Source of the DNA: Chloroflexota bacterium
Lineage (GTDB): Bacteria; Chloroflexota; UBA11872
Length of the DNA: 42,500 nucleotides
NCBI GenBank assembly: GCA_026708035.1
Contig: JAPOVQ010000034.1
Location: 1 to 42,500 of the forward strand
Direction of reading: 5' to 3'
This document shows, in pieces, positions 7,754-29,009 of the stretch. Position 1 is the first letter of the stretch. The number at the start of each line of letters is the position of its first letter. Made by a program: the position numbers and the translations under genes. The notes under the pieces are model-generated. The model was not told the DNA's origin and did not search any database. It worked only from the letters and a program-made list of their open reading frames with translations.

Positions 7754-9160
7754 GCACGTCCGGTCCTCGTCCATCGCACCACTCGAAGGTCCCGCTGTTC
7801 GCCCGCGGGAGACGATGCACCGTTGCCTCCGCACGCCCATCGCTGGCGTGAGGGCCAATCCATTGGTCCTACCAGCCAGTGGGATTCACGTGAATCCGGT
7901 AGCTATCGATTCAGAACCCGCAATCCCCACGTTGCAGCCGGGCGCGGTTGGCCCTTCAGCTGTCGTAGACCCAAAGGCTGGCGCCACCCGCCTCCCTGGT
8001 GCCGGTCATTGGACTTCGGGGTGCGTGCGAGCAGGCTCGGCCACTGGAGGACCTCGACACCGAGCGGCGGTCGATGCCTGCGCCACACCCGGCTCGCTCA
8101 TTCGTGCCAGGCGCGCGTGAAGCACCGGCGCGTCGTGGGGTGAAGGGTGTCGCTGACCGGCGGCGCTCCGAAATCAAGGTGCGAGATCGGCGGGCCTTGC
8201 ACAGCCGTCGACTCCAGGCCGCGATGTGGTGCTCGGGTGTGTCCTTCGGCTCGAAGTCGTGTCCCACTCAATATGACGGCTTCGCAGGTCCTTGGGCCTC
8301 GTTGATGATTCGGGGCATGTATACAGGCCCTCCCTCCGGGGTATGCGCGTTCCAGCGGGCTACGTGATGTCCTGGGGGCGTACAGAGATTGGAGGGGAGT
8401 TGCAGAAGTGCACGTGAGTCGTGGGCCAGGTGGTATCAGGTGGCAACCGAAAGGCGTGCCAGCAGTTTGCTGCAGTGGAGTAAGCATGTGGGCATAAGGC
8501 CCGGTTGCAAGACGGAGGACACGTCATTCTCTATAGGAGGGGCATGTTTGCATAAGGTGTGCGCAGAGGTTTCGAGCAACGACCTCGGCGAAAACGACAC
8601 GTTTGCCTGGGGAGCAAAGGCCGACGGGACGTGGCAGGCACTGGTTACGGCAGGGGTGGCGCATGATGGACGGGTGCCACCGCAGCTCACGGTGCTGTGC
8701 CACGCCCTGGTGTCAGAGCGGGAACCGCCGGGAATCGCGAGGGTATTGAGCATCAATCCTAGGACGCGAGCCTTGGGCAGGCGCCGCGACGGCTGCCGCC
8801 CGGCGGCGGGATCGCAACGAGGCCTTGGAGCAGCGCCTAGCGGAACCTCTGGTTGGCGTTGACGGACGCCCCTCGGCGGCTATCGTTGGGCTGCATGCAA
8901 GGAGCTGTGGGTTCGGAGCTTTCGGGAGGCAGCCAACGATGGCTCAAAGCAACCGCCCGCCGCCGACCGACGCGTGGAGGTGCGGGGACAGCGCGGAGAC
9001 GACCGTCGGTTGCTGCTGACTGTCGGGCCGCGACAAGGGTGCCGAGGCTACGGTGATCTCGGTGGAATGTGGCGGCGTGCCTCGCCCCCTGGCGTCGCAT
9101 GGCTACGGACTGGTTGGCAGAGCTGCACGGCGCGAGGCGGAGCGATGGCGGACTGCAGGC
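7754..9160. other. 1.4-kb stretch without a supportable gene
   Basis: Frames in this interval are short, Arg/Ser/Pro-rich, and overlap one another on both strands without ribosome binding sites. I recognise no protein motif, tRNA, long inverted repeat or intron domain in it. A frame at 8541-8760 (+), including the stretch NDTFAWGAKADGTWQALV, has the most protein-like composition but has no start or homologue I know. The interval may be decayed sequence bordering the restriction operon. Confidence 0.4.
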
Positions 9161-9177
9161 AAAGGAGGCATAGCCCA

Positions 9178-10788
9178 ATGACGACGGCACGACGAAGACG
9201 CAGAAGCGCCCAGCCCGAGTCGAGTGACGCCGGCGGCGCGATGGACCACCGGTCCGAGTTGTGGCGCATGGCCGACGCCCTGCGCGGCAGCATGGACGCC
9301 GCCGAGTACAAGCACGTCGTCCTCGGCCTCATCTTTCTCAAGTACATCTCCGACGCCTTCGAGGAGCGCCACGCCGTGGTGCTCGCCGAGTGGGGTGAGG
9401 AAGCCGCCGAGGACGAGGACGAGTACATCGCCGAGAACATCTTCTGGGTGCCGCCTGAGGCGCGCTGGTCCGTCCTGCAAGCCCAGGCGCACCAGCCCAG
9501 CATCGGCACGGTCGTCGACGACGCGATGGTCGCCATCGAACAGGACAACCCAGCCCTCAAGGACGTGCTGCCCAAGGACTACGCCCGCCCCGCGCTCGAC
9601 AAGACCCGCCTCGGCCAGGTGATCGACATGGTCAGCAACGTCAAGGTCGGCGGTGCCCAGGCCCGCGCCACCGACGTGCTCGGCAGTGTCTACGAATACT
9701 TCCTGGAGCAGTTCGCGCTGGCCGAGGGCCGCAAGGGCGGCGAGTTCTACACCCCGCGTTCCGTCGTCAGGCTGCTCGTCGAAATGCTCCAGCCCTACGA
9801 AGGCCGCGTCTACGACCCCTGCTGCGGCTCCTCGGGAATGTTCGTGCAGTCGGTAGAGTTTATCGACGCCCACGCCAGCGGCAACGGCAACGGCGGACGG
9901 GCATCGTCGAGAATCTCGATCTACGGCCAGGAGTCCAACTACACCACCTGGCGCATGGCCCGCATGAACTTGGCCATCCGGGGCATCGAAGGCCAGATCG
10001 CCCACGGCGACAGCTTCCACAACGACCGCCACCCCGACCTGCGGGCCGACTACATCCTCGCCAATCCTCCCTTCAACGTGTCGGACTGGGGCGGGGAGCG
10101 GATGCGGGACGACCCGCGGTGGACGTACGGCATACCGCCACTGCGCAACGCCAACTTCGCCTGGGTGCAACACTTCCTGCACCACTTGGCGCCCCGAGGC
10201 ATCGCAGGCTTCGTCCTAGCCAACGGCTCCATGTCGTCCAATCAGTCGGGCGAAGGGCAGATCCGCCAGAACGTGATCGAGGCTCGCCTGGTGGACTGTA
10301 TCGTCGCTCTGCCGGGCCAGCTATTCCGCTCCACCCAGATTCCTGCCTGTCTCTGGTTCCTTCGCCAGGGCCGCGGCGGGGCGCACGGACCTGGCAGGGA
10401 TGAGACGCTGTTCATCGACGCCCGCAATCTGGGCCACATGGTGGATCGCACGCGCCGCGACCTATCGGAAGAAGATATCGCCCGCGTTGCCGACACCTAC
10501 CACGCTTGGCGCGGCAGCGGGGGAGAGGGCGAGTACGCCGATGTCCCCGGCTTCTGCAAGAGTGCGGCGCTGGATGAGATTCGCCGGCACGGTCATGTCC
10601 TGACACCCGGCCGCTACGTCGGTGCCGAGCCGCAACCGGACGACGGCGAGCCCTTTGAGGATACGATGGCCCGGCTCACCAAGCAGTGGCGCGAACAGCA
10701 GGCGGAGGCCGCGAGACTCGACTCGGCCATTGAGGAGAACTTGGCACGGCTGGGGTTTGGTGCGAGCCAGGAGGGCAACGGCTTATGA
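9178..10788 (+). CDS. hsdM: type I restriction-modification methyltransferase subunit HsdM
   Basis: The start is ATG 9178, nine bases after a strong AAAGGAGG; the frame is open further upstream but without protein-like sequence. The 536-residue enzyme has the N-terminal HsdM helical domain ([19 protein letters not shown]), the linker [19 protein letters not shown]-adenosylmethionine motif [11 protein letters not shown] (D213) and the catalytic N6-adenine motif NPPF (N296). The C-terminal helical tail ([12 protein letters not shown]) contacts HsdS in this family. Two HsdM with one HsdS methylate adenines at a bipartite site to protect host DNA. It heads the composite operon ending with hsdR at 19273. 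Confidence 0.95.
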
Positions 10789-10912
10789 GACCTACAGTCG
10801 TCTTCGACTCGTCACCTCCTAACTGCATCGCCAATGTGCACGGCCTTCCTGACTGTGCGGCCACGGTGAATTTCGCAACCCAGAGGCAACTTCAGCCGCT
10901 GGAGGGAAATAC

Positions 10913-11092
10913 ATGACGGTCGGTGAACTCATACGCCTGCGGGCGATCTACCCGTCTGGCATACCGGTGGTGGCGGACGGCTACGGTGTGTCGCCAGGGC
11001 AGATATCCTCAGTGAAGATGGCCTTGAACTCGGCTAAACACCGATGGGATGAGCGACACAGCGAACCGAACAGCCCGACGAGAAACGGCTAG
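10913..11092 (+). CDS. 59-residue protein, possible helix-turn-helix
   Basis: ATG 10913 follows GGAGGG (10901-10906) at good spacing and the frame runs to TAG 11090-11092. The sequence reads MTVGELIRLRAIYPSG, then VVADGYGVSPGQISSVKMAL. The stretch 'YGVSPGQISSVK' has the shape of a helix-turn-helix recognition unit as in small XRE-like or intron-encoded HTH segments (e.g. YGVSxxxISxIK). It could be a tiny regulator of the downstream hepT-mntA-hsdS unit, or a fragment. A further 43-codon frame (10785-10916) overlaps the hsdM stop and the start of this one but has no protein-like character. Confidence 0.45.
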   Translation: MTVGELIRLRAIYPSGIPVVADGYGVSPGQISSVKMALNSAKHRWDERHSEPNSPTRNG

Positions 11093-11199
11093 GCAGCACT
11101 GACGTGGTCGAAGCGCTGGTCTTGCGGCGTGTGTCGAATTTGGACGGATTGGAGTCAGTCGTGAGCGGGCATGCATAGTCGTGGAAGAGGAGCCGTGCC

Positions 11200-11296
11200 A
11201 ACCACGGCTGTCAGATGGCGGGAGCATCGCGCCGAGGCCCATCGGTTGGACGCAGCGATTGGGGATAACCTGACGCAGTCGGGGCTTGGGATATGA
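11200..11296 (+). pseudogene. relic C-terminus of a second hsdM
   Basis: The frame ending at TGA 11294-11296 reads WREHRAEAHRLDAAIGDNL, closely parallel to the HsdM tail [19 protein letters not shown] encoded near 10690, including the Gly-rich end just before the stop. Only about 30 codons remain and there is no start. It lies directly upstream of hepT, where an hsdM stop would be expected if hepT originally followed hsdM. It therefore looks like the scar of a recombination between two related hsd operons. Confidence 0.7.
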
Positions 11297-11306
11297 GGGA
11301 TACCTG

Positions 11307-11738
11307 ATGAAGCTGGATTTGACACCGCTGGAAAATGCGGTGACGCAATTGGAAGATTCGCTCGTTCAGTACGAGTCCAACATAGTACGGCAGTATCCGA
11401 CGATCCAAAACCAAATGAGGGCCGGGGCTATCCAGGCATTTGAATTCACCTACGAACTCAGCGTCAAGATGATACGGCGCTACTTGGAACAGATTTCGGC
11501 CAATCCTGAGGAGGTAGATCAGCTGGACTTTCGGAACTTGCTCAGAATGGCGAGGCAACAGGGGTTGTTGCATTCCGAACCAGACGCTTGGATGCGGTAT
11601 CGCGCTGATCGTGGCGCCACCAGCCATGCCTACAACGAGGCGAGGGCCGAGAGGGTCTTTCAAGGCATCTCGGAGTTTCTGCGGGAGGCCCGTTATTTGC
11701 TCAAGGAATTGCAGGAAAAGAATGAACGCCTCGACTAG
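11307..11738 (+). CDS. hepT: HepT-like HEPN toxin (nucleotidyltransferase substrate-binding family)
   Basis: A 143-residue all-helical protein beginning MKLDLTPLENAV, with FEFTYELSVKMIRRYL and a C-terminal long helix. It carries RGATSHAY (R102, H107, Y109), an exact RX4HXY HEPN motif. In characterised HepT proteins the Arg/His form the RNase site and the Tyr is AMPylated by the partner MntA. The family is the HI0074/TIGR01987 type usually encoded next to an MNT nucleotidyltransferase. Here the partner domain starts 17 bases before the hepT stop (ATG 11722) and is fused to HsdS. ATG 11307 follows GAGGGA, while the frame is also open from a TTG at 11286. Location inside an hsd operon is unusual. 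Confidence 0.85.
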   Translation: MKLDLTPLENAVTQLEDSLVQYESNIVRQYPTIQNQMRAGAIQAFEFTYELSVKMIRRYLEQISANPEEVDQLDFRNLLRMARQQGLLHSEPDAWMRYRADRGATSHAYNEARAERVFQGISEFLREARYLLKELQEKNERLD

Positions 11739-13290
11739 CCCGGTGGACATCAGGATCGACCATCTTGAAGCCGTGCAATGCATCCTCCGCAAGCATCTGC
11801 CGGCGGGTGTCAAGGTCTCGGTGTTCGGCAGCCGCGCCAACTGGACCTCGAAGCACTCTTCAGACCTCGATCTGGCAGTGCAAGGCACCGCCGCGATCGA
11901 CCATGAAACTATGGCTAGGCTGGAGATAGCCTTCGAAGAGTCTGACCTGCCATATACCGTCGATGTAGTTGACCTGAACCGTATTGGAGAGTCCTTCAGG
12001 CAGATCGTCGAGTCGCAAAGAACTCTTCTTCCCATGTACGCAGATGGCAACAAGCCGATGCCGACGACTGGTTGGCACGAGGTTACGCTTGGGAACTTCG
12101 CACCTTTCGCCTATGGAAAGGGTCTCCGATCGGACGACCGAATCTCGTCAGGAGATGTACCGGTCATAGGATCAAATGGAATAATCGGTTATCACGATAA
12201 GCCACTGATTGATGGGCCAACTATCGTCATAGGAAGAAAGGGGACTGTCGGTGCTGTTTACTATTCCCCTGTTCCCTGTTGGCCGATAGACACGACCTTT
12301 TACATCACAGGTGCCGACTCTGGCCTTTTGCGGTTCAGATACTACGTTCTCAAGTCACTACCTCTTCAGGAAATGAACGCCGACAGCGCAGTTCCGGGAC
12401 TCAACCGCAATGACGCACACGCTTGTCTGGTGCGAGTGCCTGTTGAATCGGAACAACGCGCCATCGCCCACGTGCTGGGCACGCTGGACGACAAGATCGA
12501 GCTGAACCGGTGCATGAGCCAGACGCTGGAGGAGATGGCGCGGGCGCTCTTCAAGTCCTGGTTCGTGGACTTCGACCCCGTCCGCGCCAAGGTCGCTCTC
12601 AAGCAGTATGCCCTAGCGAATCACGCCGACCCTAACGCAGTGCCGAGCGGGAACGGCGCCGCGCCCGGAGGCGAGTGGACCGTCGAACGCGCCCGCGCCT
12701 ACCTGGACGCCATGGACCCGCAGATCGCCGACCTCTTCCCCGACCGGCTGGTGCCCTCGGAGCTTGGGGAGATGCCGGAGGGGTGGGAAGTGAAGGCGCT
12801 GGGGGAGCTTGTCGAACTTGCCTACGGTAAGGCTCTGCGAGCAGCCGACCGAAAGGACGGCACCGTTCCCGTGTATGGCTCGAACGGACAAGTCGGCTGG
12901 CACGATGAGAAGCTTGTAGTGGGGCCAGGCATCGTTGTCGGGAGGAAAGGCAACCCCGGTGTCGTAACGTGGGCGCATGGCGACTTCTACCCAATCGACA
13001 CGACCTTCTACGTGGTCCCAAGGAATGCCAATTTCGGGGTACACTTCCTTTTCTTTGCCCTTTCCATCCAAGACCTTCCGTCTGTTGCGGCAGATTCGGC
13101 GGTGCCGGGACTGAATCGAAAACTGGCATATATGAACATGCAGCTATTGCCTAACACACCACTCGTAGCCGAATTCAATGACTACGCGCGCGATATCTTC
13201 TCTCGCCGTCATCGTCTGCAATCGGAGTCCCGTTACCTTGCAGCCCAGCGGGACGCGCTCCTGCCGGAGCTAATGTCAGGGCTGAGGTGA
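11722..13290 (+). CDS. hsdS: MntA-type nucleotidyltransferase fused to type I specificity subunit HsdS
   Basis: A 522-residue fusion starting at ATG 11722 after AGGAAAAG. Residues 1-110 are a minimal nucleotidyltransferase: VFGSRANW (G36, S37), SSDLDLAV (D48, D50; spacing GSX10DXD) and VDVVDL (third carboxylate D81), all intact. Residues from about 113 (MPTTGWHEVTLG, where a free-standing HsdS would begin) form TRD1. The first conserved helical region follows (LDDKIELNRCMSQTLEEMA, then KSWFVDFDPVRAK), then TRD2 from about 351 (MPEGWEVKALGELVELAYGK) and the closing helices (AAQRDALLPELMSGL). HsdS chooses the DNA site and bridges HsdM and HsdR; MntA AMPylates HepT to silence it. ATG 12058 could give a separate HsdS but has no clear ribosome binding site. 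TRD1 DNA is AT-richer than the rest. Confidence 0.85.
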   Translation: MNASTSPVDIRIDHLEAVQCILRKHLPAGVKVSVFGSRANWTSKHSSDLDLAVQGTAAIDHETMARLEIAFEESDLPYTVDVVDLNRIGESFRQIVESQRTLLPMYADGNKPMPTTGWHEVTLGNFAPFAYGKGLRSDDRISSGDVPVIGSNGIIGYHDKPLIDGPTIVIGRKGTVGAVYYSPVPCWPIDTTFYITGADSGLLRFRYYVLKSLPLQEMNADSAVPGLNRNDAHACLVRVPVESEQRAIAHVLGTLDDKIELNRCMSQTLEEMARALFKSWFVDFDPVRAKVALKQYALANHADPNAVPSGNGAAPGGEWTVERARAYLDAMDPQIADLFPDRLVPSELGEMPEGWEVKALGELVELAYGKALRAADRKDGTVPVYGSNGQVGWHDEKLVVGPGIVVGRKGNPGVVTWAHGDFYPIDTTFYVVPRNANFGVHFLFFALSIQDLPSVAADSAVPGLNRKLAYMNMQLLPNTPLVAEFNDYARDIFSRRHRLQSESRYLAAQRDALLPELMSGLR

Positions 13291-13294
13291 GGAA

Positions 13295-14368
13295 ATGTCC
13301 GAACAGGAGAATGACGCTTTGAACATCAATTTGAATTCTCGAGCTGTCGAAAAGCTGATCGACTATACGGCGAGTGGCATCGGCAGCACAGCTAGCTTCG
13401 TCTTTTCTCGCATGATGGCGCGACGTGACGCCGAAGCGAAGCTCATCGCTGCTGAGGGTGAAGCAAAAGCGAAGATTGCCGAAGCCAAAACTCAAGCAGA
13501 CACCATGCGGATCATCTCGAAAGCGCAGGCCGACGCCCGTTCAACGATTATTTCCTCTGAAGCTGTTGTTGGTGGTGAAGTGACATTTGGCGATCTGGTC
13601 GAGCAGCGAATTCAATTCCAAGAGCAAAAACGACAATCCAACATTGAATCGGTCGTACAACAGGCAGCTTTGGAGCTAGAAGATAAGGAAGTCCAAGACG
13701 ACGAAGTCGATCACGACTGGACAGCGCGATTCTTCAACGATGTTCAAGATGTATCCTCTGAAGAAATGCAGCAGATTTGGGCCAAAGTCCTTGCAGGCGA
13801 AGTAGAGAGATCTGGGAGCACATCCATCAAGACTATCGGAATTCTCAAAAATCTAGATAAGGGAACTGCCGATCTATTTCGGAAGCTTTGCTCCATCTGT
13901 GTATCGATCAGCCCAGATGGAGGTATTATCATGGATGCCAGAATCCCTGCGCTAGGTGGTGATGCGGGAACCAACGCGCTGCAAAAGTACGGGCTTAGTT
14001 TTGACAACCTGAACGTGCTCAACGAACATGATCTTATAATCTCCGATTACAACTCCTCGTATGACTACAAGATGAGTGTGGGCATCCCTTTGCCCGGTCA
14101 AGCGCCACCCTTGTGGCTGAGATTCCCATTTAGATTTCAGGGACGATCGTGGGTCTTGGTGCCAATAAAACAACGATGGGTAGACAAAGAATTCAGGCTG
14201 TCAGGAGTCGCTCTTGCTCAATCTGGTAGAGAGCTTTCACGCGTCGTGGAAATACAGCCTATGAAAGAATACCTCGAAGACTTCAAGAAATTCCTTGGCC
14301 AAAATGACTTGAACATGGCTGAATCAGGGATTCATTTACCACACCAATTCCAAGTACCGCCGGAGTGA
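13295..14368 (+). CDS. DUF2806-domain protein in the hsd operon
   Basis: A 357-residue protein beginning four bases after the hsdS stop, with GAGGTGAGGA as ribosome binding site. An N-terminal segment (about 15-50) is followed by an Ala/Glu/Lys-rich helix (about 46-80, AEAKLIAAEGEAKAKIAEAK) that should form a coiled coil. Then come a charged linker and WTARFFNDVQDVSSEEMQQI followed by AKVLAGEVERSGS, which is the hallmark of DUF2806. The C-terminal half is beta-rich. DUF2806 proteins are found with restriction-modification and other defence genes, but their activity is unknown to me. The gene is AT-richer than hsdM and hsdR, consistent with acquisition as a cargo gene. Confidence 0.7.
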   Translation: MSEQENDALNINLNSRAVEKLIDYTASGIGSTASFVFSRMMARRDAEAKLIAAEGEAKAKIAEAKTQADTMRIISKAQADARSTIISSEAVVGGEVTFGDLVEQRIQFQEQKRQSNIESVVQQAALELEDKEVQDDEVDHDWTARFFNDVQDVSSEEMQQIWAKVLAGEVERSGSTSIKTIGILKNLDKGTADLFRKLCSICVSISPDGGIIMDARIPALGGDAGTNALQKYGLSFDNLNVLNEHDLIISDYNSSYDYKMSVGIPLPGQAPPLWLRFPFRFQGRSWVLVPIKQRWVDKEFRLSGVALAQSGRELSRVVEIQPMKEYLEDFKKFLGQNDLNMAESGIHLPHQFQVPPE

Positions 14369-14374
14369 AAGAGG

Positions 14375-14890
14375 GTGCCTACCACCATCCTCGCCGAATC
14401 TGGCGCGGAAGACGCCGCGCTCGGCTGGCTAACCGATTTCGGCTGCCAAACTGCTTACGGCCCCGTCATTGCACCTAATGCGCCAGGGGCCGAACGCGCG
14501 GACTACGGTGACGTGGTGCTCGAGCGCCGGCTGCGGGATGCACACGCGGCGTTGAAGCCCGCCCTGCTAGCGGATGCGCTGGACGACGCCTTCCGCAAGC
14601 TTACGCGGCCCGAGGGCTCGTCTCTGGAAGCGCGCATTCGAGGCTTCCACCGGATGCTCGTGAACGGCGTTGAGATCGAGTACCGGAACGCCGAGGTCCG
14701 GGTGGTCGGGGGACAGGATTAAGTCGTGGACCGCGAGAAACCAAACAACAACGACTGGCTGGCGGTAAACCAATTCAGCGTCACCGAGAACCGAAACGCC
14801 CGCCGGCCGGACGTGGTGCTGTTCGTCAACGGCCTGCCGCTGGGCGTGATCGAGCCGCTGTCGCGGCATATTTCGGGAAGGTTACGATAG
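14375..14890 (+). pseudogene. truncated hsdR copy (N-terminal part)
   Basis: From GTG 14375 the frame encodes a close relative of the first ~160 residues of the intact HsdR at 16139: shared blocks include [28 protein letters not shown] and RMLVNGVE. An in-frame TAA at 14720-14722 stops it. The same reading frame then continues without length change ([20 protein letters not shown], then [11 protein letters not shown]) until homology ends abruptly at 14854, just before the PD-(D/E)XK lysine. The stretch 14746-14854 is nearly identical at DNA level to 16504-16612. It is not expected to be functional; a 115-residue N-terminal fragment could still be made. Confidence 0.85.
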
Positions 14891-14894
14891 CGCC

Positions 14895-16028
14895 ATGGCA
14901 GCAACCCAATACCACCTTGGCATGTTCCCTCCTCGGAATCTGGACTGGGCCCGGTTAGTGCCTGAGATCGGGCGAGCGCACTCTGCGGTGGCGGCATATG
15001 GGGCGATGCTCGAAAGCATGCCCAACACTGGTGTCCTCATTTCTCCGCTTGCGACCCAAGAGGCCGTTTACTCAAACTGCATTGAGGGCACGGAAACAAC
15101 CCTTACTGAGGTTCTGACCTTCGAGGCCGATGAAGACCAACCCGTCGATGATCCAGCCAAGCGACACGACGTCTACGAGGTCGTGAACTACAGGATCGCC
15201 CTCGCTGCTGCCAACCGCCAGATCGAACACATACCTTTATCGTTGAGGCTCATTCGCAACGCTCACCGCATTCTGATGAGAGGCGTCAGGGGGCGGGACA
15301 AAGCCCCGGGCGAATACCGCCGCATACCCAACAGCGTTTGGATTGGACCTCCTGGTTCGACCATCGAGAGCGCCGACTTCGTGCCCTGCCCTGTGGAGCA
15401 TCTGGCGGGCGCCATGGATGCATGGGAAGGGTTCATTCACTCGGATGAGCCCGACCCGCTGGTGCAGCTGGCAATCGTTCATGCCGAATTCGAGTCAATC
15501 CACCCCTTCCTGGATGGAAACGGACGGATAGGCCGGTTGATCGTTCCGCTATATATGGTTGCGAAGGGCCTCTTGGAGGCGCCGCACTTCTATATCAGCG
15601 GCTTTCTCGATCAACACCGCGACGAGTACTACGAGCGGCTGCGAGCAGTGTCCCGCGATGATGACTGGACTGGCTGGTCCGGGTTCTTCCTGAAGGCCGT
15701 TGAAGAACAGGCCAATACCAATCTGGCCCGGGCCAGGAGCATCTTGGCACTCTACGACGAGTTGAAGGAATGGGTGGTTGACGAGACCCATTCCCAGTAC
15801 GCCGTTCGAGCTCTCGACTGGATCTTCGGAAAGCCGATTTTCCGTTCATCCGATTTCGTGCGGAACTCCGGGATTCCCGCACCCACGGCGTCCCGGATAC
15901 TACGAGTACTGCGCGACGGCGATATGTTGACCGTATTGCGTGAAGCTCGTGGGAGGCGGCCGGCGATGCTGGCCTTTTCCAGGCTCCTCCGCGTGGCGGA
16001 AGGCGGCGCGGCGGTTGCGTCTCACTGA
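14895..16028 (+). CDS. Fic-domain AMP-transferase, class II
   Basis: A 377-residue protein with the complete Fic motif HPFLDGNGRIGR (H203 to R214) and an N-terminal inhibitory helix motif SNCIEG (S60-E64-G65), the (S/T)xxxE(G/N) signature of class II auto-inhibited Fic enzymes. The C-terminal ~90 residues resemble a winged helix (PIFRSSDFVRNSGIPAPTAS, then ILRVLRDGDML). Such proteins transfer AMP from ATP to hydroxyl groups of targets when inhibition is relieved. The gene starts 40 bases after homology to hsdR breaks off and ends 110 bases before the intact hsdR. Fic genes are known passengers of type I restriction operons; the target is unknown. Confidence 0.92.
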   Translation: MAATQYHLGMFPPRNLDWARLVPEIGRAHSAVAAYGAMLESMPNTGVLISPLATQEAVYSNCIEGTETTLTEVLTFEADEDQPVDDPAKRHDVYEVVNYRIALAAANRQIEHIPLSLRLIRNAHRILMRGVRGRDKAPGEYRRIPNSVWIGPPGSTIESADFVPCPVEHLAGAMDAWEGFIHSDEPDPLVQLAIVHAEFESIHPFLDGNGRIGRLIVPLYMVAKGLLEAPHFYISGFLDQHRDEYYERLRAVSRDDDWTGWSGFFLKAVEEQANTNLARARSILALYDELKEWVVDETHSQYAVRALDWIFGKPIFRSSDFVRNSGIPAPTASRILRVLRDGDMLTVLREARGRRPAMLAFSRLLRVAEGGAAVASH

Positions 16029-16068
16029 TTGAAGACAATGGGTTTTGTGACTCATGTTGGGCCTATGG

Positions 16069-16110
16069 TGATGCACAACAGCGCTTGTGGTGAGCTCGTG
16101 ATGCACAACG
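16069..16110 (+). repeat. 12-bp direct repeat before hsdR
   Basis: GTGATGCACAAC occurs at 16069-16080 and again at 16099-16110, with start points exactly 30 bases (about three helical turns) apart, in the short gap between fic and hsdR. The same-face spacing suits a pair of operator half-sites. No protein is known to bind it. Confidence 0.45.
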
Positions 16111-16138
16111 AGAATCCCGGCGAACGACGCACAGGCCC

Positions 16139-19273
<3,135 letters not shown>

Positions 19274-23588: not shown

Positions 23589-23676
23589 GTGATCCCCACG
23601 CGCGTAGGGGTGAACCACCTGCTCATCGGCGGGGCCGCCCTCGTGTTTGGTGATCCCCACGCGCGTAGGGGTGAAC
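23589..23676 (+). CRISPR. second CRISPR fragment, two repeats
   Basis: Two repeats at 23589-23615 and 23650-23676 match the repeats of the array at 21208-21417 except that the G-run has four instead of five bases, giving 27 bases. One 34-base spacer lies between them, again with a 61-base period. The orientation is the same. It ends about 60 bases before a tRNA-Ile gene. The repeats probably belong to the same CRISPR family; the shorter G-run suggests an independently evolving array or a split one. Confidence 0.85.
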
Positions 23677-23734
23677 CCTTTCCCTATAGGTTCAGAACGA
23701 TCCTCAGCGTAAAGGTTCTTGATTTTGTCCAGCT

Positions 23735-23811
23735 TGGTGGGCCCTCGTGGATTCGAACCACGGACCTCGCCCTTATCAGAGGCGCGCTCTAACCGACTGA
23801 GCTAAGAGCCC
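23735..23811 (-). tRNA. tRNA-Ile (GAT)
   Basis: Read leftward from 23811 the gene starts GGGCTCTTAGCTCAG, has anticodon GAT (23775-23777 on the complementary strand), a TTCGAAT T-loop and an acceptor stem whose seven pairs all form (one G-U). The CCA end is encoded (23735-23737). It stands alone on this strand, outside any rRNA operon. Frames translating as WIRTTDLAL are artefacts of this gene. Confidence 0.95.
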
Positions 23812-23859
23812 GGAGCCCTGGGGATGGTATCAGAGCCCCGCACCGATCCGGCGCTACCC

Positions 23860-23865
23860 TAGAAT
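23860..23865 (+). promoter_or_regulatory. possible -10 element of tRNA-Ala
   Basis: TAGAAT at 23860-23865 ends eight bases before the tRNA-Ala gene. No convincing -35 hexamer is seen 17 bases upstream. The 62-base gap must hold promoters for both divergent tRNA genes. Confidence 0.3.
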
Positions 23866-23873
23866 CTGGCAAT

Positions 23874-23946
23874 GGGGATGTAGCTCAATTGGTAGAGCAC
23901 TGCCTTTGCAAGGCAGGGGTTAGGGGTTCAAGTCCCCTCATCTCCA
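23874..23946 (+). tRNA. tRNA-Ala (TGC)
   Basis: The cloverleaf is complete: acceptor GGGGATG pairs with CATCTCC including the G3-U70 wobble that identifies tRNA-Ala, the D-arm is GCTC/GAGC, the anticodon TGC is at 23907-23909 and the T-loop is TTCAAGT. CCA is not encoded (CCC follows the discriminator A), unlike the tRNA-Ile beside it. It is transcribed divergently from that gene. Confidence 0.95.
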
Positions 23947-24073
23947 CCCAAGACTGGCGGCGTCGGCCGGCGCGGTGCATGCCCAGGGATCGGCTGGAGC
24001 ACCTGTCGCGATCGCGCCGCGCCCAGCTTGCGGAGCGTCTAGTCGTCGACGGCGAGCATGCCGCGCGTCGGCA

Positions 24074-24694
24074 TCAACACCGGCCGAAGCCCATCCACGC
24101 TGGCAGGCAGCCTTCCGTCGCGACCGTCGAAAGGATGGTGACCTCTTCCTCCGCGGCCTCGATCTTGTCCAACGTCGCCCACGACACCGCATGGTTTTCC
24201 CTGACATGGCCGAAGATCGTGTATTCGTGCGGCGCCTCGGCGCTTCCGGCCAGATCGCCAAGGATGAAGAAGAACCGCGATCCGTTGGAGTTCGGCGTCC
24301 CGTCGTTGGCCAGCGCAATCAGTCCCCGCGCGTAGGGTCGCTGCGGTGGCTCGATCTCGAAGGTGTAGCCCGCGTTGCCGGTGCCCGTGCCCGTCGCGTC
24401 GCCCGATTCGGCGAGCAGGCCGGGGACTACCCGATGAAACGCGAGGCCGTCGTAGTAGCCCTCGTTGATCAGGAAGATGAAACTGTTGACCGCCAGCAGT
24501 GCTTCCTGCGGCAACATCACGAAGCGGATGCGCCCGACGCTGGTGGTGAAGGTGACGCTATAGCCCCGCTGATCTTCAACCTCCATCGGCGGGTAGGCGT
24601 CGTAGACCGGAGGCCCTTCCGGCTCCGACTCGCCGCAGGCGGCCACGACGATGAGCACGAGGGCAGCTAGCCCAAGGATTGTCACTCGCCGCAT
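24074..24694 (-). CDS. cyclophilin-type peptidyl-prolyl isomerase lipoprotein, copy 1
   Basis: 206 residues. A basic start (MRRVTILGLAALVLIVVAAC) leads to a lipobox cysteine, then the tether GESEPEGPPVYDAYPP and a cyclophilin domain: FHRVVPGLLAESGDATGTGTG, then NDGTPNSNGSRFFFILG and EYTIFGH. It should be a membrane-anchored foldase acting outside the cytoplasm. It is the most divergent of the five in its first half (MEVEDQRGYSV; MLPQEALLAVNSFIFLINEG) and at the C-terminus (AWMGFGRC). It is the last gene of the array in transcription order. Confidence 0.9.
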   Translation of the reverse strand: MRRVTILGLAALVLIVVAACGESEPEGPPVYDAYPPMEVEDQRGYSVTFTTSVGRIRFVMLPQEALLAVNSFIFLINEGYYDGLAFHRVVPGLLAESGDATGTGTGNAGYTFEIEPPQRPYARGLIALANDGTPNSNGSRFFFILGDLAGSAEAPHEYTIFGHVRENHAVSWATLDKIEAAEEEVTILSTVATEGCLPAWMGFGRC

Positions 24695-24731
24695 TGCGCT
24701 CGTCTCCCCGTCAGGCCCTGGATCCGCCTAA

Positions 24732-24744
24732 CATTCTGCCGCAC
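24732..24744 (-). promoter_or_regulatory. conserved upstream motif, cyclophilin copy 1
   Basis: CATTCTGCCGCAC on the plus strand, 38 bases above the start of copy 1. It is shared with all four sister genes and preceded on the gene side by the conserved CCTGGATCCGCCTAA. Confidence 0.55.
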
Positions 24745-24797
24745 CCGCCATGGAGTCTGCTAGACCGAACGCGCCCCTCATGTGGTTCCAGAACCCG

Positions 24798-25418
24798 TCA
24801 CGAGCACTGGTAGGGACCGCCGCTCGGCAGGCAGCCCTCCGTCGCCTTCAGCGACAAGATGGTGACCTCTTCTTGCGCCGCCTCGATCTTCTCGAGCGTG
24901 GCCACCGACGGCGCGTGATTCGGCTTCAGATGGCCAAAGACCGTGTACTCATGCGGCGCCTCGGCGCTTCCCGCCAGGTCGCCCAGGATGAAGAAGAACC
25001 GCGATCCGTTGGAGTTCGGCGTCCCGTCGTTGGCCATGGCGATGGCGCCGCGTTCATAGGGCCACTGCGTGGACTCCACCTCGAAGGTATAGCCCGGGTT
25101 GCCGGTGCCCGTTCCGGTGGCGTCGCCGGTCTCGGCGAGCACGCCCGGGACCACCCGGTGAAACGCGACGCCGTCGTAGTAGCCGCTATTGGCTAGAAAA
25201 ATGAAGCTATTGACCGCCAGCGGCGCCTCTTCCGGAAGCAGGGTGAAGGTGAGGCGCCCGACGCTGGTGGTGAAGGTGATGCTGTAGGACCGCAGCGGAT
25301 CAATCTCCATTGCTGGGTAGGCGTCGAAGACCGGCGGCCCTTCCGGCTCCGACTCGCCGCACGCCGCCACCACGACGACGATCAACGAAACTAGACCGAC
25401 CACTACCGCTCGCCGCAT
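24798..25418 (-). CDS. cyclophilin-type isomerase lipoprotein, copy 2
   Basis: The start at ATG 25418 is chosen because MRRAVVVGLVSLIVVVVAAC is the leader shared by the paralogues; the open frame continues to 25514 without such sequence. The mature tether GESEPEGPPVFDAYPAMEID and the domain (YYDGVAFHRVVPGVLAETGD; SNGSRFFFILGDLAGS) follow the same plan. The C-terminus reads EGCLPSGGPYQCS, nearly the same as copy 3, so copies 2 and 3 look like the youngest duplication. Confidence 0.9.
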   Translation of the reverse strand: MRRAVVVGLVSLIVVVVAACGESEPEGPPVFDAYPAMEIDPLRSYSITFTTSVGRLTFTLLPEEAPLAVNSFIFLANSGYYDGVAFHRVVPGVLAETGDATGTGTGNPGYTFEVESTQWPYERGAIAMANDGTPNSNGSRFFFILGDLAGSAEAPHEYTVFGHLKPNHAPSVATLEKIEAAQEEVTILSLKATEGCLPSGGPYQCS

Positions 25419-25454
25419 GGCGCCTTTTCCCCGCCGGCCCCTGGGTCCGCCAGA

Positions 25455-25467
25455 CATTCTGCCGCAC
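25455..25467 (-). promoter_or_regulatory. conserved upstream motif, cyclophilin copy 2
   Basis: CATTCTGCCGCAC (plus strand) 37 bases above the start of copy 2. Similarity with copies 1 and 3 extends beyond it (GCCATGG, then GCTAGACCGA), so the promoter region was duplicated with the gene. Confidence 0.55.
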
Positions 25468-25520
25468 GTGCCATGGGACCTGCTAGACCGAGCGCGACCC
25501 CCGTGCGAGTCCAAGACCCG

Positions 25521-26141
25521 TCATGAGCACTGGAAGGGACCGCCGCTCGGCAGGCAGCCCTCCGTCGCCTTCACGGACACGATGATGACCTCTTCCTGCG
25601 CCGCCTCGATCTTGTCGAGCGTGGCCACCGACGGCGCGTGATCCGGCTTCAGATGGCCGAAGACGGTGTACGCGTGCGGCGCCTCGGCGCTTCCCGCGAG
25701 GTCGCCCAGGATGAAGAAGAACCGCGATCCGTTGGAGTTCGGCGTCCCATCGTTGGCCAGGGCGATGCCGCCGCGTTCGTAGGCTCGCTGCGTAGACTCC
25801 ACCTCGAAGGTGTAGCCCGGATTGCCGGTGCCCGTTCCGGTGGCGTCGCCCGTCTCGGCGAGCACGCCGGGGACTACCCGATGAAACGCGACGCCGTCGT
25901 AGTAGCCCTCGTTGGCGAGGAAAATGAAGCTGTTGACCGCCAGCGGCGCCTCCTCGGGAAGCAGCTGGAAGGTGAGGCGTCCGAGATTTGTCGTGAAGAT
26001 GACGCTGTAGGACCGGCGCAGATCAATTTCCATCGATGGGTAGGCATCGAAGACCGGAGGACCTTCTGGCTCCGACTCGCCGCACGCAGCAATGACAACC
26101 AAAATGAGGGAAGCAATCCCGACTGCTACCACTCGTCGCAT
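25521..26141 (-). CDS. cyclophilin-type isomerase lipoprotein, copy 3
   Basis: ATG 26141 begins MRRVVAVGIASLILVVIAAC, followed by the GESEPEGPP tether. The domain carries YYDGVAFHRVVPGVLAETGD and SNGSRFFFILGDLAGS. It differs from copy 2 mainly around RRSYSVIFTTNLGRLTFQLL and by HAYTVFGHLKPDH. The frame is open to 26318, but the leader fixes the start. The unit length from copy 2 is 723 bases, compared with about 827 for the next two steps. Confidence 0.9.
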   Translation of the reverse strand: MRRVVAVGIASLILVVIAACGESEPEGPPVFDAYPSMEIDLRRSYSVIFTTNLGRLTFQLLPEEAPLAVNSFIFLANEGYYDGVAFHRVVPGVLAETGDATGTGTGNPGYTFEVESTQRAYERGGIALANDGTPNSNGSRFFFILGDLAGSAEAPHAYTVFGHLKPDHAPSVATLDKIEAAQEEVIIVSVKATEGCLPSGGPFQCS

Positions 26142-26178
26142 GGCGTTCTTCTTCCCCTCGGACCCTGGATTCGCCAAG

Positions 26179-26190
26179 CATTCTGCCGCA
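26179..26190 (-). promoter_or_regulatory. conserved upstream motif, cyclophilin copy 3
   Basis: CATTCTGCCGCA (plus strand; the next base is T instead of C) 38 bases above the start of copy 3. Confidence 0.55.
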
Positions 26191-26349
26191 TGTGACATGG
26201 GACCCACTAGGCCGAGCGCAACCGCCGCCCGAGTCAGCAATCCATCATTCTCAGCCGCCCGGCCCATCGGATCGACTCGCCGGCGCCACGCGCCCATTCG
26301 GATAGCGCCTGCGCCCATGAAGCGAGCTGCGCGCTGGCCGAAGTCGGCC

Positions 26350-26970
26350 CTAGCATGCCCCGTAGTTGCCCCGGCTCGGCAGACATCCCTCGGTGACCTG
26401 CAGCGACCGGATGATGACCTCTTCCTGGGCGGCCTCGATCTTGTCGAGCGTCGCTACGGACGGGGGGTGATTCGGCTTCAGATGGCCGAAGACCGTGTAC
26501 TCGTGCGGCGCGTCGGCGCTTCCGGCGAGATCGCCGAGGATGAAGAAGAACCGTGAGCCGTTGGAGTTCGGCGTCCCGTCGTTGGCCAGGGCGATGCCAC
26601 CGCGTTCATAGGGCCGCTGCGACGGCTCCACCTCGAAGGTGTAGCCCGGGTTGCCGGTGCCCGTGCCCGTCGCGTCGCCGGTTTCGGCAAGCACTCCCGG
26701 AACGATGCGATGAAACGGCACGCCGTCGAAGTAACCCTCCCTTGCCAAGAAAACGAAGCTGTTGACCGCCAGCGGCGCCTCTTCCGGAAGCAGCTGGAAG
26801 GTGAGGCGTCCGACGCTGGTGGTGAAGACAACGCTGTAGGACCGGAGCGGATCAATCCCCGTCGGTGGGTAGGCCTCATAGATCGGCGGCCCTTCCGGCT
26901 CCGCCTCGCCGCACGCCGTCACGACGAAGAGCATTAGGGCCGCCAGCCCAAGGAGTGTCACTCGCCGCAT
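26350..26970 (-). CDS. cyclophilin-type isomerase lipoprotein, copy 4
   Basis: ATG 26970 gives MRRVTLLGLAALMLFVVTAC and the tether GEAEPEGPPIYEAYPPTGID. The active-site strand reads FDGVPFHRIVPGVLAETGD, with Phe for the second Tyr of the usual YYDG; SNGSRFFFILGDLAGSADAP and EYTVFGHLKPNHPPS follow. The C-terminus is EGCLPSRGNYGAC. All five copies keep a Cys in EGC and one near the last residues, a possible disulfide in the exported domain. Confidence 0.9.
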   Translation of the reverse strand: MRRVTLLGLAALMLFVVTACGEAEPEGPPIYEAYPPTGIDPLRSYSVVFTTSVGRLTFQLLPEEAPLAVNSFVFLAREGYFDGVPFHRIVPGVLAETGDATGTGTGNPGYTFEVEPSQRPYERGGIALANDGTPNSNGSRFFFILGDLAGSADAPHEYTVFGHLKPNHPPSVATLDKIEAAQEEVIIRSLQVTEGCLPSRGNYGAC

Positions 26971-27005
26971 CCTGCGCTCTCTCGTCAGCCCCTGGGTCCG
27001 CCTAC

Positions 27006-27018
27006 CATTCTGCCGCAC
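27006..27018 (-). promoter_or_regulatory. conserved upstream motif, cyclophilin copy 4
   Basis: CATTCTGCCGCAC (plus strand) 36 bases above the start of copy 4, with the preceding CCCTGGGTCCGCCTAC also conserved. Confidence 0.55.
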
Positions 27019-27175
27019 CTGACAGGGGCATGGTGAACGTACCGCATCCGCCATGCGGGTCGAGGACCCGTCGTCCGCGGTCGCCCGGCCCATCGGCTCC
27101 GCTCACCAGCGCCGCGCACCGCATTGGATGGTGCGTGCGCCCACGAAGCGAGCTAGACGCCGCCCCCAATCGGTC

Positions 27176-27796
27176 CTAGCACGGGCCGTAGCCACCCCAG
27201 CTCGGCAGGCAGCCTTCCGTGGCCTTCAGCGACAGGATCGTGACTTCTTCCTGGGCGGCTTCGATCTTGTCGAGCGTGGCCAAGGACGGCGCGTGGTCTT
27301 CCTTGTAGTGGCCGAAGACCGTGTACTCATGCGGCGCGTCCGAACTTCCCGCAAGGTCGCCGAGGATGAAGAAAAAGCGCGATCCATTTGAATTCGGCGT
27401 GCCGTCATTGGCCAAGGCAATGCCTCCGCGCTCGTACGGCCGCTGCGGCGGCTCCACCTCGAAGGTGTAGCCCGCGTTGCCGGAGCCCGTGCCCGTGGCG
27501 TCGCCGGTTTCGGCCAGCACCCCGGGGACCACCCGATGAAACGCCACGCCGTCGTAGTAGCCACTGTTGGCGAGGAAAATAAAGCTGTTGACCGCCAGCG
27601 GCGCCTCTTCGGGATTCAGGACGAAGCTGATGCGTCCGACGCTGGTGGTGAAGGTGACGCTATAGGGCCGCAGCGGATCAATCTCCATCGCAGGATAGGC
27701 GTCGTATACCGGGGGCCCTTCCGGCTCCTCCTCGCCGCACGCCGCCGCCACGATCAGTAACAGGGCCGCCAGCCCGACCAGCATCGCTTGCCGCAT
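27176..27796 (-). CDS. cyclophilin-type isomerase lipoprotein, copy 5
   Basis: ATG 27796 follows GGGGAGAAG and gives MRQAMLVGLAALLLIVAAAC with the more acidic tether GEEEPEGPPVYDAYPAMEID. The domain has SVGRISFVLNPEEAPLAVNS, YYDGVAFHRVVPGVLAETGD and GDLAGSSDAPHEYTVFGHYK. It is the first gene of the array in transcription order and lies 94 bases downstream of the potassium-channel gene end. The C-terminus is EGCLPSWGGYGPC. Confidence 0.9.
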   Translation of the reverse strand: MRQAMLVGLAALLLIVAAACGEEEPEGPPVYDAYPAMEIDPLRPYSVTFTTSVGRISFVLNPEEAPLAVNSFIFLANSGYYDGVAFHRVVPGVLAETGDATGTGSGNAGYTFEVEPPQRPYERGGIALANDGTPNSNGSRFFFILGDLAGSSDAPHEYTVFGHYKEDHAPSLATLDKIEAAQEEVTILSLKATEGCLPSWGGYGPC

Positions 27797-27833
27797 CACG
27801 ATCTTCTCCCCGACCGCATGACGTTCTGGCAAC

Positions 27834-27846
27834 CATTCTGCCGCAC
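27834..27846 (-). promoter_or_regulatory. conserved upstream motif, cyclophilin copy 5
   Basis: CATTCTGCCGCAC (plus strand) 38 bases above the start of copy 5. Flanking sequence is otherwise different from the other copies, so the 13-base core is the constrained part. Confidence 0.55.
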
Positions 27847-27890: not shown

Positions 27891-29009
27891 CTAGATCGAG
27901 CTGGTGCGCTGTTTGGAGGGTACGGGCGGCGCGTCGACCAGCCCGTGACGCTCGACAAGGCGCTGCAGCCCTTCAGGGACGCCCACGACCACGAATACAT
28001 CGCCGGCCTCGAGCACACGGTCCGTCGCCGGCGCCATCTCCGTGCGTCCCCGCCGGACAAGGGCCAACATCGATACCCCAAACTCCTGGAGCGACAACCC
28101 ATTCACCGTTTCGCCAATCAGCCCGGATCCTCCCGGAACGGTCATTTCGCGGATGTCCAGGCCGGGCGAGTGGGGATCGAGCAGCTGGTCGAGCACATCC
28201 CGCACGTTCGGCCGCCGGACGAAGTCAACCATGCTCAGCGCGCCCTCGATCGGCGGTGAAAACACGCGCCGGGCGCCGGCCGATTGCAACCGCCGGACCG
28301 CCTCGTCCGATGCGGCGCGCGCGATGACCGGCACGTTCGGGGCCAGCATGCGAGCTGCCAGCACCGCGTATACGTTTTCGGCGTCGTCGTCGGTGGCGAC
28401 GATGAAGGCGGCGGCGCGCTCGATGCCTGCCTCGGTGAGCCCCGCATCCGATGACGCGCGATCGGCAATGCTCACCAGACCGTCATCCGATGCCTTCTTG
28501 ACCTGCGCCGGGTCGATGTCGATCACCACGACGTCGCAGCCGTCGTTGCGCAACTCTTGGGCGATGCGCGCGCCGACGCGGCCATACGACCCGACGATGT
28601 AGTGACCCTGCATGTGCGAAAGGAGCCTCGCGCGGCGGCGGCGCGCAAAGTGTGCACCCAGGTGGCCTTCGGCGAGGTAGTCGATATAGTTCGCCGCCGT
28701 CCAGGCGAGTGTACCGACGCCGGCCACGATCAACAGCGACGTAAACACACGCCCTGCCGTGGACAACGTGTGCACCTCCGCGAAGCCCACGGTGCTGATG
28801 GTGATGACGACCATGTAGAGGGCGTCCACCGGAGCCATCCCCTCGATCACGACGAATCCGACCACCCCAACGGCGGAAACCGCGACCAAAAAGAGGAAGC
28901 CGGGAATCAGTCGGCGCCGCCAGTAGAACTGGGCAATGCTGGCGGCCTTGCCGGATGGCCGAGACGGGACGAATCGCCCAGCGCCCAGTCGAGTCTCCCT
29001 GTGTTTCAT
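27891..29009 (-). CDS. two-TM potassium channel with RCK (TrkA-N/TrkA-C) domain
   Basis: A 372-residue protein. TM1 (about 36-54, PGFLFLVAVSAVGVVGFVVI) and a pore loop TISTVGFAEV are followed by TM2 (about 86-107). Then comes an RCK domain with the dinucleotide-binding glycines in HYIVGSYGRVGARI, the acidic VVIDIDP strand end and ATDDDAENVYAV, and a TrkA-C domain (about 290-358). The layout is that of MthK/Kch-like ligand-gated potassium channels. The filter reads TVGF where the canonical sequence is TVGYG, so selectivity could differ. It starts at ATG 29009. Confidence 0.9.
   Translation of the reverse strand: MKHRETRLGAGRFVPSRPSGKAASIAQFYWRRRLIPGFLFLVAVSAVGVVGFVVIEGMAPVDALYMVVITISTVGFAEVHTLSTAGRVFTSLLIVAGVGTLAWTAANYIDYLAEGHLGAHFARRRRARLLSHMQGHYIVGSYGRVGARIAQELRNDGCDVVVIDIDPAQVKKASDDGLVSIADRASSDAGLTEAGIERAAAFIVATDDDAENVYAVLAARMLAPNVPVIARAASDEAVRRLQSAGARRVFSPPIEGALSMVDFVRRPNVRDVLDQLLDPHSPGLDIREMTVPGGSGLIGETVNGLSLQEFGVSMLALVRRGRTEMAPATDRVLEAGDVFVVVGVPEGLQRLVERHGLVDAPPVPSKQRTSSI

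Follow-up and report, generated by a model that had tools for sequence, protein, structure and literature searches.

A genus-specific tandem family of predicted lipoprotein cyclophilins with a common promoter-like element and an altered proline pocket

A window of 42,500 nucleotides from a Chloroflexota genome contains five adjacent minus-strand cyclophilin genes, which we interpret, with somewhat better than even confidence, as an ancient genus-specific tandem family of lipid-anchored, pocket-altered cyclophilins, each with its own core promoter and with the copies dividing labour among themselves. The initial annotation had described five adjacent products of exactly 206 residues with the same lipobox, and the five open reading frames bear this out. 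The features that carry the argument are listed below in order of transcription.

27834-27845, minus strand: promoter-like core TGCGGCAGAATG of array gene 1 (motif search)
27176-27796, minus strand: array gene 1 (transcribed first), lipoprotein cyclophilin; 206-residue open reading frame; PF00160, E 3e-26; tail SWGGYGPC
26971-27175, minus strand: long intergenic stretch, 205 bases; about 100 extra bases in common with 26142-26349 (alignment)
27006-27017, minus strand: promoter-like core of array gene 2 (motif search)
26350-26970, minus strand: array gene 2; 206 residues; PF00160, E 5e-26; tail SRGNYGAC
26142-26349, minus strand: long intergenic stretch, 208 bases (alignment)
26179-26190, minus strand: promoter-like core of array gene 3 (motif search)
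25521-26141, minus strand: array gene 3; 206 residues; PF00160, E 3e-27; tail SGGPFQCS
25419-25520, minus strand: short intergenic stretch, 102 bases (alignment)
25455-25466, minus strand: promoter-like core of array gene 4 (motif search)
24798-25418, minus strand: array gene 4; 206 residues; PF00160, E 2e-28; tail SGGPYQCS; predicted cyclophilin barrel
24695-24797, minus strand: short intergenic stretch, 103 bases (alignment)
24732-24743, minus strand: promoter-like core of array gene 5 (motif search)
24074-24694, minus strand: array gene 5 (last); 206 residues; PF00160, E 7e-25; tail AWMGFGRC
27891-29009, minus strand: TrkA-N-like potassium channel protein (named from sequence), upstream neighbour; adjoins the array in four of six genomes
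23735-23950: tRNA-Ile (minus strand) and tRNA-Ala (plus strand), downstream neighbours; adjoin the array in four of six genomes

The array proteins score 89-100 bits against PF00160 (curated cut-off, 21.7), and the product of gene 4 is predicted to fold as a cyclophilin barrel (mean pLDDT 78, some core parts >90) that matches known cyclophilins at Z ~18-20. Every array copy begins with MR and a hydrophobic stretch leading to a predicted AAC/TAC/AGC-type lipobox, and in all five proteins this box ends at Cys20 of a signal peptide and is followed by GExEPEGPP, so that the mature proteins would be anchored on the outer side of the membrane. The copies share 73-87% protein identity at pairwise dN/dS values of 0.19-0.37, and all five genes are therefore maintained. 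Start-to-start distances of 724, 723, 829 and 826 bases confirm the spacing of about 724 and about 827 bases reported earlier, and both values follow from the two intergenic types, one of which has ~100 additional bases.

Copy number sets the genus apart. This genome encodes eleven cyclophilins, each with a signal peptide and lipobox by eye, and PF00160 proteins number 10-12 in each of the six genus genomes, against 0-3 per genome in the remainder of the class (35 genomes) and 0-1 elsewhere in the order; the family has expanded from about one to about eleven copies within a single bacterial genus. The suggestion that the arrangement is unusual for cyclophilins holds in this sense of copy number. 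The named relatives are Chloroflexota metagenome-assembled genomes, and a bacterium of this genus is probably a sponge symbiont; the bin prefixes COS3 and RHO3, going by the names, would match Coscinoderma and Rhopaloeides, the sponges of PMC8163846. A search for cyclophilins in sponge Chloroflexota in the literature library consulted returned no relevant paper.

The array lies in the same place in all six genus genomes, with four to six copies in each, and a glycosidase-like gene adjoins it in every one. The window does come from a 36-contig draft genome, so the multiple copies might be thought an assembly artefact of a metagenome bin, but we give this virtually no credence because the copies differ by 12-23% in nucleotides and six separately assembled genomes, which contradict it, carry the same array at the same position. 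Two other features of the window are recorded here as observations. At 23589-23677, beside tRNA-Ile, a 28-base sequence, GTGATCCCCACGCGCGTAGGGGTGAACC, occurs in two exact copies with 33 bases between them and forms a minimal CRISPR-like array, type I-E-like by eye, of which no counterpart turned up at this position in the other five genus genomes; and 8974-19273 holds Type I restriction-modification genes (methylase, specificity subunit and large helicase-like subunit) among which lies a gene for a Fic-like protein, all named from sequence.

Across the genus, the 28 intact array copies have only five C-terminal tails, constant between species and different between copies; since orthologs were grouped by tail, the absence of variation within a group is partly circular, but the existence of only five tails is not. 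Three of the five resulting classes (SWGGYGPC, SRGNYGAC, SGGPFQCS, SGGPYQCS and AWMGFGRC) are supported clades in the protein tree. An ortholog of array gene 1 was found in all six genomes, SGGPYQCS is absent from G003 and G004, and in G001 and G002 classes 2 and 3 have exchanged places. Same-genome paralogs are no closer to one another than paralogs from different genomes (identities by region 0.749/0.752, 0.789/0.789, 0.858/0.856 and so on), which gives no sign of concerted evolution among the array copies of the six genomes; the copies therefore predate the genus and have not been homogenised. The same ortholog and paralog identities speak against gene conversion within the array and against a recent date for the stepwise duplications that the unit spacing had been taken to imply. 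One extra array copy, G005_5 (G005:C14:12024-12611), has a frameshifted C-terminus and a mutated motif and is apparently decaying; it is the only array copy with a broken C-terminus. Elsewhere in the genome read here, two further lipoprotein cyclophilin genes lie in tandem at G000:C14:101185-102571, with an ordinary pocket and their own C-terminal cysteine pair; this gene pair may have been homogenised, since its members are near-identical here although such a pair exists in all six genomes.

Each array gene is preceded by the same element. The 12-mer noted upstream of every array start was confirmed at 24732, 25455, 26179, 27006 and 27834; CATTCTGCCGCA on the plus strand reads TGCGGCAGAATG in gene sense, and 35-37 bases intervene before the ATG in all five cases. 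The exact 12-mer occurs five times in the 3.46-Mb genome, always at the array, with 18 further sites at one mismatch and eight sites for the pattern read backwards. Its description as private to the array thus stands for the exact 12-mer but not for the core GCGGCARAAT, which also precedes the dispersed paralogs C28:5213 and C14:121306, lying ~48 bases above these genes and their orthologs in all six genomes. Of the 29 array copies of the genus, all but two have the core beginning 43-52 bases upstream of the start codon, and copies G001_1 (TACGGCAGAATG) and G005_5 (TGCCGCAGAATG) have one mismatch in it. GCAGAATG is 100% identical among array copies, while the flanks of different paralogs are 38-61% identical and six adjacent bases 84%; TGCGG ahead of CAGAAT is nearly constant too. 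The array is accordingly a clean example of a promoter-like core that has stayed identical through old duplications while its surroundings drifted, and the earlier proposal of a separate promoter for each copy is supported in the form of a separate, conserved promoter-like element at each.

We take the element to be an atypical -10 core because TAGAAT, which CAGAAT resembles, lies at -13 to -29 upstream of five of 30 tRNA genes in this genome and GGCTAGAAT lies upstream of the C27 cyclophilin gene. The genome's -10 usage was judged from those 30 tRNA promoters, none of which has CAGAAT or CAAAAT. Sigma-70-type promoters pair the -10 with a -35 hexamer at a spacing of 16-18 bases; a scan for their consensus detected nothing here, and the array copies have no clear -35 that all of them share. 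With moderate confidence, TGCGGCAGAATG would contain a -10 hexamer in which C at the first base makes CAGAAT weak, and a single core promoter design, with the -10 within GCGGCAGAATG, would be repeated before each array gene and drive its transcription.

The principal rival to a -10 core is that the 12-mer is the operator of a dedicated transcription factor, with the cyclophilins as a small regulon. The element does exceed a usual -10 in length and constancy, and its near-constant TGCGG would suit such a site, but we consider this unlikely because the element has no internal symmetry and few other conserved targets. The genome-wide search that the initial annotation proposed for a regulon mark found only one cyclophilin clade in all six genomes, together with efp in two; non-cyclophilin matches to GCGGCARAATR in the six genomes were mostly inside genes, and the sole plausible other promoter was that of efp. 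This gene, for elongation factor P (named from sequence; G000:C34:65850), has GCGGCAAAATG 42 bases above its ATG, as it does in G001, and this match is absent from the remaining genus genomes. EF-P is also concerned with proline-rich proteins.

An alternative interpretation of the repetition is that the genes form a single operon read from the promoter of gene 1 and that the other elements were merely inherited through duplication. The genes share one strand with gaps of 102-208 bases, and no terminator was found between array copies, where a terminator scan did not rise above shuffled sequence. We regard this as distinctly improbable, however, because the element is identical and at near-constant distance despite drifted surroundings, and also stands before dispersed single copies; read-through may come on top of internal promoters. 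Since the promoter cores are identical, they favour parallel expression, with labour divided by protein sequence, over differential control of the copies, an earlier suggestion that the sameness of the core in all copies of six genomes does not support. Separate but equal promoters would yield all copies in parallel, and dosage is a possible role for their number.

The clade that carries the promoter-like core is also the clade with a changed proline pocket. Alignment to solved cyclophilins shows that the array proteins keep CypA R55 (the catalytic arginine, R88 here) and F113 (F142), but F60 is replaced by V or L93, M61 mostly by L94 (F in some copies), Q63 by E96 and Q111 by R140; at H126 most copies have Y, the residue found in E. 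coli PpiB. The canonical combination of R55, F60, M61, Q63 and F113 is thus incomplete in every array protein. The changed pocket is common to the array and to the C28 and C14:121306 copies (seven genes in this genome), and the pocket-altered proteins form one clade with support of 100/98; the C14 pair, C30 and C27 keep an ordinary pocket. Between paralogs, residues 86-142 are the most constrained (pN/pS 0.13) and the last nine the least (0.74), which places the altered pocket under constraint. Relatives in the class have at most three cyclophilins, and this genus has about eleven, of which seven in the genome read here are pocket-altered and under purifying selection, making the genus a natural test case for the capabilities of a cyclophilin that lacks the standard pocket.

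It is doubtful that the changed pocket supports fast isomerase activity, because R, F, M and Q are all present in the bacterial cyclophilins tabulated in PMC13162259, and three of these residues are replaced here. It may still be catalytic, since activity is compatible with some pocket changes, as in S. pyogenes PpiA (PMC11853100). Another view is that the array proteins are ordinary isomerases with full activity, and that their amplification serves only the dosage of envelope folding. The fold, the catalytic Arg and Phe113 are kept and the promoter cores are identical; nevertheless, we think this somewhat unlikely because no member of the clade retains F60, M61 or Q63, in contrast to the bacterial cyclophilins that PMC13162259 tabulates, and because four canonical-pocket copies are already present in the same genome.

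On the reading that we prefer, of pocket-altered copies dividing labour, the clade would have kept fold and catalytic arginine while its other proline-pocket residues were replaced alike, and its members would bind proline-containing stretches of exported proteins, mainly as chaperones or as slow isomerases. Paralog-specific C-terminal cysteine loops and residues 20-85 would set the copies apart, presumably by client. All intact array copies have one Cys within GCLP and another that is either the last residue or the one preceding it, and their only other cysteine is the lipid-bearing one; a similar C-terminal pair occurs in the C28 and C14:121306 copies. In an exported protein the tail pair likely closes a disulfide loop, in a part of the protein where the structure model has low confidence. 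We entertain more tentatively, and with considerable doubt, a surface panel of non-catalytic or re-tuned cyclophilins, expressed in parallel, whose short C-terminal loops, probably closed by a disulfide and fixed copy by copy across species, would provide separate specificities towards the bacterium's own exports or the sponge host.

Among known cyclophilins, spliceosomal CWC27 and PPIL2, which have changed active sites, share the fold and are among the best profile and structural scores; unlike the array they are eukaryotic and intracellular, and at the positions of V and E in the array CWC27 retains F and Q. Some spliceosomal members with such altered sites act as binding modules and show little activity. 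Nearer relatives are the single cyclophilins of order-mates (for example G018, G020 and G012), which resemble the array in lipobox and cyclophilin domain but are present in one copy and lack the C-terminal cysteine pair; those read are lipoproteins with an ordinary pocket, and GCGGCARAAT was not found above them in the stretches scanned. The C27 copy of this genome clusters in the tree with lipoprotein cyclophilins of the sister genus. The best Foldseek matches are surface cyclophilin structures of S. pyogenes and S. pneumoniae (7l6y and 7l6z). Streptococcal SlrA/PpiA and lactococcal PpiA are lipid-anchored extracytoplasmic cyclophilins, as the array proteins are by sequence, and have a role in exported-protein folding (PMC11853100; PMC3307742). 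That type has an ordinary F/M/Q pocket and demonstrated PPIase activity (PMC11853100), whereas the array has the anchor sequence without the F/M/Q pocket and differs in its five copies, V/L-L-E pocket and C-terminal cysteine loop. The array is a lineage-specific twist on a known kind of protein rather than a new system.
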